Shown here: positions 5,783 to 44,383 of the stretch, piece by piece
Layout: each line of letters begins with the position of its first letter
Position numbering within the stretch: the stretch's first letter is position 1
NCBI RefSeq assembly: GCF_000336955.1
Contig: NZ_AOLI01000019.1
Span: forward strand, 514,786-578,785
Direction of reading: 5' to 3'
Length of the DNA: 64,000 nucleotides
Source of the DNA: Haloferax larsenii JCM 13917
GTDB taxonomy: Archaea; Halobacteriota; Halobacteria; Halobacteriales; Haloferacaceae
The notes under the pieces: generated by a model
Seen by the model: the letters and a program-made list of their open reading frames with translations, nothing else
Databases searched by the model: none
Told to the model about the DNA's origin: nothing
Position numbers and translations under genes: made by a program

Positions 5783-5900
5783 TACCCAGTAGACTGACTT
5801 CTCCCAAACAGCGGCACCGACCGAACTGTGCGGTATGGCGGCGACAACAGACGAAACGGTCGTAAGAAAGCGTCCTGGCTAGGGATTTGGGACTGCTGGA

Positions 5901-41974: not shown

Positions 41975-42080
41975 TACGCATCGGCCCAAGCATACATCCC
42001 GAACTAGCCCGAGCAAACTACCTAGCCCGGCTCTGTTGAAATCCTCGGGGAGTTACAAATTCGACCGGTAGTCTGACCGG

Positions 42081-42932
42081 ATGGAAGCCCTCCCAAAGTC
42101 GCGGTTGCTCCAGTTCGTGGAACAAGCATACCACTTGGCTCGTCGAGCTGTCGCTCGCTACTCGTCGAAGTTCTCGAAACGGCGGTACACGCTCCATCAA
42201 CACATCGTCTTGCTATGTCTCAAGGTGCGGAAGAATACGACGTACCGGACGCTTCTTGACGAACTCATCGAGATGCCTCGGATTCGGAGCGCCCTCAATC
42301 TTGAGGGACTCCCGACACCATCAACGCTATGTAAAGCGTTCAATCGGCTTGATATGGCGGTTTGGCGCGTTCTGCTCAACCTCTCGGTCACACTCCTCCC
42401 GACCAACGGTGTCGTCGGAATCGACGCCTCCGGTTTTGACCGGAGTCACGCCTCGAAGCACTACACGAAACGAACGAAGCTGACGATTCAGCAGTTGAAA
42501 GTTACCCTTCTCGTGGATACGAGGTCGAACGCGATTCTCGACGTACACGTGACGACGACCAGAAAACACGACTCGAAGATCGCGCCGTCACTCATCATGC
42601 GAAATATCGAGGAAGTCGATATTCTCCTTGGCGACAAGGGATACGACGACCAGAAGATTCGCGCGTTGGCCCGTGAGACTGGTGTTCGACCGCTCATCAA
42701 GCACCGCGAGTTTTCGTCGCTCCACAAGGCATGGAACGCTCGGCTGGATACTAATCTCTACGGTCAGCGCAGTCAGAACGAGACCGTAAATTCTCGCCTC
42801 AAACGGAAATATGGCGCATTCGTCCGCTCACGAGACTGGTGGAAGCAGTTCCGCGAACTCGTCATCAAGTGCATTGTTCACAATCTGGAGCGAAACCTCG
42901 CTATTTCAAATGAGGAGAGCGACTGTCCGTGA
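42081..42932 (+). CDS. IS5-family transposase (DDE)
   Basis: This 283-residue transposase appears intact. Catalytic residues are visible as Asp115 (VVGIDASGFDRS), Asp185 (ILLGDKGYDDQKI) and Glu234 (SQNETVNSRLKRKYGAF). The N-terminus (FSKRRYTLHQHIVLLCLKV) resembles the ISH1 subgroup. The start codon lies 52 bp inside the left inverted repeat. No frameshift or premature stop is seen, so it may be active. Confidence 0.92.
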   Translation: MEALPKSRLLQFVEQAYHLARRAVARYSSKFSKRRYTLHQHIVLLCLKVRKNTTYRTLLDELIEMPRIRSALNLEGLPTPSTLCKAFNRLDMAVWRVLLNLSVTLLPTNGVVGIDASGFDRSHASKHYTKRTKLTIQQLKVTLLVDTRSNAILDVHVTTTRKHDSKIAPSLIMRNIEEVDILLGDKGYDDQKIRALARETGVRPLIKHREFSSLHKAWNARLDTNLYGQRSQNETVNSRLKRKYGAFVRSRDWWKQFRELVIKCIVHNLERNLAISNEESDCP

Positions 42933-42967
42933 TTCCGAGAGGAAGGGACTGCTGAATACAGAGGGTG

Positions 42968-43108
42968 GGCCTTGTTTAGACGCGGTGCAGATTGTCCGAG
43001 AAGACCTTTGCCCATACAACGAGATCGGAGAGGGAGGCACTCATGGACGGACTCTACTCATCCAATAGAACCACCATCTGACGTCTTCAGGAGCGTATAA
43101 ACAAGGCT
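42968..43108. mobile_element. MITE-like nested insertion, about 141 bp
   Basis: A perfect 10-bp inverted repeat, GCCTTGTTTA at 42969-42978 and TAAACAAGGC at 43098-43107, is flanked by a 9-bp direct repeat CAGAGGGTG at 42959-42967 and 43109-43117. No coding frame is present inside. The end sequence GGCCTTGTT equals the first 9 bases of the outer element's right terminus, so the same or a related transposase could move it. Confidence 0.65.
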
Positions 43109-43187
43109 CAGAGGGTGAGTTCAGTAATCCACCAGTGGCCATTCGATGGTTGAATTTTAAACCACCCATTCTTCGACTACCAATTTA

Positions 43188-43658
43188 TCAATCCGAAATT
43201 GTGGTTGTATTGAGCTGCGAAAAATTGAGTGTGAGTGGGTTTGTTTGTACGGAACACCGCGTATCAGTCTCTGGGTCGAATTGACTGTCACCGTTTGTGT
43301 CTCCATAGGCAAGAACTCGAACCGTGTGGCTCCCCTTCAACGGCTGGTCAAGATTGAGTATCTCCCCATCGGACGCAACCGCTCGGTTGCTCGTCACGTG
43401 TTTCACTCCAAGCACAGTGTCGTCCTCGTAGGCGACTAATAGAATGTCTGCTCCGCTCCCGAGTTCGTAGCCAACTCGAAGTTTGTCAGCTCCCCAACCG
43501 TAGTATTCGTCCCTGCTCAAGTCCTCTGGTGGGGGCTTGTAGAACCCGAGCGAATTGATATTGCATTCTTGACTAAGAGCAGATGACGTTGCTCCGAGAC
43601 ACCCGCCAAGAACAGCGAGAAGAGTAAGGAGAGCTACCATGACCGCTTTGCGGCACAT
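43188..43658 (-). CDS. Putative lipoprotein carried by the IS element
   Basis: This 156-residue protein begins with a lipoprotein signal peptide (MVALLTLLAVLGGCLG, lipobox Cys20 from Met1). The mature domain has AYGDTNGDSQFDPETDTRC, a pattern like calcium-binding or DUF7282-type extracellular modules, and ends NTTTISD. Three further cysteines could form disulfides. It is transcribed against the transposase inside the inverted repeats, so it behaves as a passenger gene. ATG 43658 is used; an in-frame ATG at 43640 would keep the signal peptide. Confidence 0.7.
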   Translation of the reverse strand: MCRKAVMVALLTLLAVLGGCLGATSSALSQECNINSLGFYKPPPEDLSRDEYYGWGADKLRVGYELGSGADILLVAYEDDTVLGVKHVTSNRAVASDGEILNLDQPLKGSHTVRVLAYGDTNGDSQFDPETDTRCSVQTNPLTLNFSQLNTTTISD

Positions 43659-43804
43659 GCTAATTGATTAATGCCTGATTGGTAAATGCTTTATCAGGAA
43701 TTGGTAAATCGAACTGGCTGTCACGACCGATTCGCGCGCTGTATTCAGCACTCCCGCTGAAACCTGTCGCTGATTGAGGATTTCAACAAGGCCCCTAGCC
43801 CGAA

Positions 43805-44383
43805 ATGAAGCAATCTACACTGGTTGTCCTCGCACTCGTCGCACTCGTCGGCGGCGGTGTTGCGACCGCGTTTGTGACCGGTGTCGGCCCGTTCGCCAGC
43901 GACGACGACGAGCTAGACGGTGAGTTCCCGACACAGACGGCGACACCAAGCTCCGGAGACGACTCGTCCGGCAGTGGCGACGGCGGTGACAGTAGCGGCG
44001 GCGACTCCGACGGCTCTTCGTCTGACGAGACCTCGACGCCGCCGTTTAGCTTCACCATCGAAGACATCGAGGAGTGTGGCCAGACGTGCCGCGACGTGAC
44101 GAGCACCGTGACGAACCAGCAGGACGACTCCGCGACCGGCGTCACGGTCTACAGTCGCATCTACGTCGGCAACAGCACCGCCGAGGACGACGTCATCTGG
44201 CAAGGAAAAGAGGCGATTGGCGGCCTCGAAAGCGGCGAGTCCTACACCGCGACGCGTCGCGTCGAACTTTCGTTCACGGAGGCGTTCGCGGTCCAGCAAG
44301 CCGACGGGTGGATAACCATTCAGACGACGATTCAAAGCGACGAGCAGACGCTGACCTACACCGAGCGTCGGGACGTCGTCTGA
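43805..44383 (+). CDS. Secreted/anchored protein with acidic Ser-Gly-Asp linker
   Basis: This 192-residue protein has an N-terminal signal or anchor (MKQSTLVVLALVALVGGGVATAFV). A low-complexity Ser/Gly/Asp linker follows at about 45-80. A C-terminal domain of about 110 residues contains EECGQTCRDVTSTVTNQQD, with two cysteines three apart, and ends TLTYTERRDVV. This looks like a haloarchaeal beta-sandwich surface domain of unknown function. Its ATG is 3 bp from the IS target duplication, so its native promoter is now 1.8 kb away. Confidence 0.78.
   Translation: MKQSTLVVLALVALVGGGVATAFVTGVGPFASDDDELDGEFPTQTATPSSGDDSSGSGDGGDSSGGDSDGSSSDETSTPPFSFTIEDIEECGQTCRDVTSTVTNQQDDSATGVTVYSRIYVGNSTAEDDVIWQGKEAIGGLESGESYTATRRVELSFTEAFAVQQADGWITIQTTIQSDEQTLTYTERRDVV

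Follow-up and report, generated by a model that had tools for sequence, protein, structure and literature searches.

The window analysed here, a 64,000-nucleotide stretch of the Haloferax larsenii JCM 13917 genome, contains an IS5-family element that encloses a lipoprotein gene as well as its transposase, and the question it raises is whether this gene is a fixed part of the element or one of many interchangeable passengers. Haloarchaea are textbook cases of rampant gene exchange, and their accessory genomes are patchy. We consider the element to be probably (at roughly 0.75) an autonomous member of a haloarchaea-wide modular cassette transposon system, in which transposition of whole units is combined with exchange of cassettes at a pair of border motifs that we call P and Q.

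Structure of the element and its insertion site

The element forms a single transposable unit at 42029-43793 of the window, with one pair of terminal inverted repeats (IRs) and one transposase. Its boundaries and genes are as follows.

42021..42028, no strand: left target-site duplication CCTAGCCC, with an exact copy at 43794-43801
42029..42046, + strand: left terminal IR (IR-L) GGCTCTGTTGAAATCCTC, 16/18 against the right end and common to relatives
42081..42932, + strand: IS5-family DDE transposase, 283 aa (NCBIfam NF033579, IS5_2; Pfam DDE_Tnp_1)
43188..43658, - strand: passenger (cassette) gene for a predicted 156-aa lipoprotein, lipobox LGGC
43776..43793, - strand: right terminal IR (IR-R), End A, a layout also found in transposase-free elements
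43794..43801, no strand: right target-site duplication CCTAGCCC, exact and directly outside IR-R

As an earlier note on this DNA had described, the IRs and an exact 8-bp duplication surround an intact transposase gene and an oppositely oriented open reading frame (ORF) for a lipoprotein, and between 41.9 and 43.9 kb CCTAGCCC occurs in two copies only, each directly outside an end of the element. The transposase scores 223.6 bits against IS5_2 (cutoff 140) and matches DDE_Tnp_1 (PF01609), as an IS5-family DDE enzyme should; no other intact close copy of it exists in its genome, and plasmid records label it merely 'IS5 family transposase'. The terminal IRs and the fixed duplication length (exactly 8 bp in 25 copies) likewise place the element in the IS5 family. 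The empty site that the earlier note had suggested looking for, a single uninterrupted copy of the target, is present in Haloferax elongans (G025), and together with the exact duplication it bears out the claim that the element moved as a unit with the lipoprotein gene. A composite with separate ends, the alternative named in that note, and a compound transposon between two flanking IS copies were both ruled out by the single IR pair and single transposase. The low GC content ascribed to the surroundings is real, but it is a property of the element (0.52 against 0.63 for the window), the flanks being host-like.

The right end of the element lies a few bases 5' of the ATG of a predicted secreted-protein gene (43805-44383; the interval is 43794-43805), so that the upstream region of that gene has been displaced. 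The original arrangement upstream of the secreted-protein gene is retained in H. elongans.

Related copies with other passengers

A transposase identical in all its amino acids to that of the window is encoded on a plasmid of Halorussus halophilus, which belongs to a different family. The Halorussus element (L293:3949-7273) has its own exact duplication, ATTTTTAG, and is 99.8% identical to the window over 939 bp (42029-42967) and 100% identical over 60 bp (43734-43793), with no homology between 42967 and 43734, where a TrkA-C protein gene and a gene for a formate/nitrite-transporter-family protein take the place of the lipoprotein gene. The view that this lipoprotein and the IS are permanent partners was therefore rejected; neither 392 genomes of the order nor the plasmid collection yielded a close copy of the lipoprotein. 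In a DNA search, the transposase half was present in most of the 170 genomes of the family, and the lipoprotein part had no match elsewhere in them. The lipoprotein has distant haloarchaeal relatives at 41-43% identity and a faint, sub-threshold similarity to DUF7282, and none of the array sites described below (J, A or B) was found in the 1.5-kb flanks scanned around its relatives in other families (L038-L066). An internal P-like match (5814-5839) separates the two Halorussus cargo genes, and this transposase-bearing element with two cassettes links the autonomous elements to the arrays.

An exact 8-bp duplication marks the right end of 25 (the window and Halorussus copies among them) of the 52 distinct copies of the transposase whose left end is intact, against a mean of 0.02 in a shuffled control. 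All 25 are between 1195 and 3967 bp long (1.2-4.0 kb), and nearly all hold passenger genes, mostly different from one another, so that a passenger can hardly be called unusual here, as it had been. Copies lacking the lipoprotein, which the earlier note would have counted against its reading, do exist, but they hold other passengers. These, most of them named by eye from the sequence, are lipoproteins, small membrane proteins, HD-domain-like, reductase-like and pilin-like proteins, histidine kinases, and a substrate-binding lipoprotein with an oxidoreductase; a clear cargo ORF reaching 60 aa is missing from a few copies, L138 among them. Certain passengers occur more than once, at separate sites and each time with another duplication (L113/L115, L009/L011 and L032/L033). 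The window's own genome also has a transposase-free element (L002:526-1119, C17) with the same terminal IR and an exact duplication, ATTTCTTC, whose cargo is one different lipoprotein gene only, and in which the P motif is absent.

Border motifs and cassette arrays

Since the homology between Halorussus and the window stops at P and Q, the shell ends exactly at these two motifs, which lie in the window as follows.

42950..42967, - strand: border motif Q, part 1, on the shell side of the cassette; Halorussus shell homology ends at 42967
42968..43108, no strand: nested MITE of 141 bp, ends GGCCTTGTTTAGACGC / GCGTATAAACAAGGCT, splitting Q
43109..43126, - strand: border motif Q, part 2, comprising the second MITE duplication copy and the outer arm
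43724..43750, - strand: border motif P; Halorussus shell homology is exactly 43734-43793

Both motifs consist of a 10-nt arm, a 7-nt core and a 10-nt arm, with arms drawn from a common vocabulary (RWRTnnnnCA) and differing cores, AGNGCGC in P and AGAGGGT in Q. A P motif is expected by chance 0.02 times per window; the one found here is set 43 nt in from the outer end and comprises the outer arm GAATCGGTCG (43724-43733), the core AGCGCGC (43734-43740) and the inner arm TGCTGAATAC (43741-43750); in the comparison with Halorussus, the shell takes in the inner arm and core (TGCTGAATAC-AGCGCGC-), and the outer arm is different. Q next to the transposase reads TGCTGAATAC-AGAGGGT- (inner arm 42950-42959, core 42960-42966) and belongs to the same motif family as the array junctions. 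The MITE within it is flanked by a 9-bp duplication, CAGAGGGTG (42959-42967 / 43109-43117), and its relatives in two other genomes, at 69-74%, are full-length; within the window's own genome, Q part 2 matches the junction consensus weakly.

P was detected in 110 of the 170 family genomes, the reversed control pattern in none of the genomes listed. From about 80 P loci and the named plasmids, in a sample of one genome per species, three site types were worked out. These loci also served to train the model that defines the classes, and cassette boundaries were set by an automatic procedure. End A is an IR, 25 nt and P; End B is Q and an IR; and the junction J, of about 94 nt, is Q, a spacer of about 30 nt and P. 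Arrays follow the layout A-(cassette-J)n-cassette-B, with all sites in one array in the same direction, and P and Q also border transposase-free elements. A three-cassette transposase-free array with the exact duplication GGCGAGTG exists in the window's own genome (L152), a Haloprofundus plasmid (L273) has about 10 cassettes, and the longest array, with about 13 J, lies on the G082 chromosome next to another with about 9, the two taking up some 24 kb. An IS605-type TnpB gene (L278:2307-3638) lies in the gap between the two G082 arrays.

Transposition of units and exchange of cassettes

Among 77 A-to-B units, only 17 showed an 8-bp duplication with at most one mismatch, compared with 0.21 for permuted partners, and seven showed an exact one, compared with none in 1000 permutations; the exact cases include units with two, three and four cassettes. 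From the duplications we infer strongly that the outer IRs are the sites of action of the transposase, which moves the shell together with its contents and produces 8-bp duplications.

The 156 distinct cassettes cut out of the arrays and elements have a median core of 570 bp, of which the longest ORF covers a median of 72%. Seventeen recurring cassette pairs, at 76-97% identity, were found, most with different site contexts; thus one pair (L189/L273, 93%) is a single-cassette element in H. prahovense and lies mid-array in Haloprofundus. Protein pairs at 74% or more have the same orientation with respect to the sites, and inversion of cassettes between P and Q was rejected, no inverted copy having been found. 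At fixed loci of different Haloferax species, the cassette is wholly different and kilobases of flank are collinear at 91-96% on both sides; such two-sided swaps were seen at three locus pairs (L202/L183, L179/L187 and L193/L203), and weaker or one-sided cases include L151 of the window's genome compared with H. larsenii L276. In eight pairs that have a locus or a shell in common, homology across P is 0.88-0.92 in the shell, 0.99 in the inner arm and 0.95 in the core, and falls to 0.70 in the outer arm and 0.24-0.32 in the cassette. Q outer arms do not always move with the cassette, and the breakpoints become less sharp in cassette pairs that are about 85% identical. Comparison of the loci shows, in short, that shells have swapped cassettes and that the breakpoints are concentrated at P and Q.

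Possible mechanisms

In the scheme that we favor, a shell would consist of a terminal IR, the transposase gene and Q on one side and of P and an IR on the other, and a cassette would be any gene between Q and P, here that of a lipoprotein. The transposase would first shift the shell and its contents as one unit by way of the outer IRs, creating the 8-bp duplications, and transposase-free units with the same ends would presumably be mobilized in trans. Shells trade cassettes, with breakpoints concentrated at P and Q and orientation kept, and cassettes line up with J (Q-spacer-P) between them. The exchange itself would be a conservative recombination at P and Q, carried out by a hypothetical enzyme, and we give this mechanism slightly less than an even chance. 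With their different cores, the two motifs would each pair only with their own kind, which would make the exchange a natural counterpart of recombinase-mediated cassette exchange. The arm-core-arm design suggests a tyrosine-recombinase-like site, which would permit exchange and not inversion. No recombinase gene was recognized among the large ORFs flanking several selected arrays, and for this reason the enzyme is hypothetical; nor was an integrase that could drive the exchange recognized in the flanks examined.

A wider version of this scheme is possible, although the odds are somewhat against it: throughout the class, P and Q in inverse arrangement would serve a dedicated recombinase that swaps and strings cassettes, and an IS5-type transposase would move the arrays, the whole being analogous to integrons, independently evolved and mainly diversifying surface proteins.

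Short-homology recombination or gene conversion is an alternative that we hold to be less likely than not. P and Q (each about 27 nt) and J (about 94 nt) would act as homology patches during mating, with no dedicated enzyme. Recombination is frequent in haloarchaea, J sites average 73% column identity with long identical stretches in some, and some breakpoints reach beyond the core; the conservation of the J spacer also means that ordinary homologous recombination could account for part of the shuffling. However, End A and J have only the P patch in common and yet cassettes lie behind both, breakpoints concentrate at the inner arm and core, and homology alone does not require distinct cores and an arm vocabulary conserved throughout the class.

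The arms of P and Q resemble the terminal IR (GGNCGTGCTGAATAC compared with GGCTCTGTTGAAATC, 11/15), and so the motifs may be transposase sites. If they were internal binding sites of the transposase, arrays could have arisen by aberrant end-to-end transposition or by fusion of neighbors with loss of the inner IRs, and the fixed 43-nt distance of P from the outer end and the position of the transposase gene between IR and Q would be in keeping with this. We regard it as unlikely, however, because the J spacer is conserved across genera, which a random fusion scar would not be, and because orientation within arrays is uniform.

The first reading, in which an unusual lipoprotein gene is the permanent passenger of a one-off transporter IS, agrees with the single end pair, exact duplication and empty site, but is contradicted by the near-identical Halorussus shell with other genes; the generality of usually differing passengers in the clade and the missing close lipoprotein copies (392 order genomes and the plasmid collection) also speak against it, and we hold it to be very improbable. 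A true integron-type system, with an integrase and folded attC sites, is scarcely credible: its ordered arrays with conserved junctions, small-gene cargo and kept orientation are matched here, but arm pairing is not maintained, single-stranded folding of J is no better than that of shuffles in six of eight cases (J as a folded attC was rejected on these grounds), no integrase was recognized at the arrays examined, and the published archaeal integrons are attC/IntI based, with Halobacteria unmentioned in the text (PMC9668308).

Comparison with known systems

Modular IS231-MIC231 elements and mobile insertion cassettes (MICs) are, with the transporter IS and integrons, the nearest known systems. 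They are similar to the present system in having IS ends around passengers, transposase-free versions movable by a cognate transposase, and a modular interior; however, they are not known to have the ordered multi-cassette arrays, the conserved 94-nt junction and the two motifs with differing cores, and the haloarchaeal system swaps cassettes in situ at the same locus and spans a whole archaeal class. The IS231-MIC231 work (De Palmenaer 2004; Chen 1999) is cited in PMC3129680 and PMC6542083. Transporter IS (tIS), such as those of the IS1595 family (PMC3129680, ref 6), also combine a transposase and an unrelated gene within one IR pair, but the passenger here is interchangeable and bordered by recombination-like motifs. 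The window element, with its unrelated passenger, one IR pair and single transposase, has the makeup of a tIS; its own transposase sets it apart from MICs, whereas its transposase-free relatives do fit that class. If specialists prefer, the system could alternatively be filed under MIC/tIS.

Integrons and archaeal CALINs (Ghaly 2022, PMC9668308) share with it mostly single-gene cassettes, conserved separating sites and cassette-level mobility. The haloarchaeal site, however, is unrelated and without a conserved hairpin, no integrase was recognized nearby, and the arrays terminate in inverted repeats of the IS, bordered by 8-bp duplications; tandem single-gene cassettes that are singly mobile are found in the relatives, the window element having one cassette. 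A transposon with one surface-protein passenger, Hlac_3088 of Halorubrum lacusprofundi, appears as a single case in the available text of PMC10544981, where a cassette system is not described. We could not find any described haloarchaeal IS-ended cassette arrays with such junctions in the open-access PMC literature.

Distribution and gene content

With a sequence-only J model, 308 out of 391 genomes of Halobacteria gave a match (E-value of 1e-4 or less, half-site matches counted); the E-values of this model are rough, and its counts per genome mean at least that many. No match was found in about 124 genomes of other classes, so that within this sample of the phylum J is confined to Halobacteria, and the exact motif had no match in IMG/VR that would indicate viral carriage.

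Among 149 cassette ORFs, 21 resemble lipoproteins, and a simple hydropathy test assigns a membrane-like segment to another 74. With cassettes so rich in small membrane proteins and lipoproteins, cassette traffic is likely to vary the cell-surface proteome. Pfam recognized 49 families among 120 cassette proteins, mostly as single hits, and the idea that the cargo forms a defence island was rejected, only three of the 120 matching PADLOC models. The mean GC content of cassettes is 0.51, compared with 0.58 at the locus edges, and the window cassette (0.50) is typical. If the proposed system is real, most genomes of the class possess an organized platform for gene cassettes that does not follow the integron paradigm, and this platform would explain part of the low-GC pool of accessory genes, rich in hypothetical genes, membrane proteins and lipoproteins; cassette traffic would be directly testable in Haloferax volcanii, and the system might provide a new cassette-exchange tool for archaea.

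A second dialect of the border motifs, with an inner arm like CGTTAGATA, exists in another branch of the same transposase family (L013, L025, L031, L033, L114 and L137).
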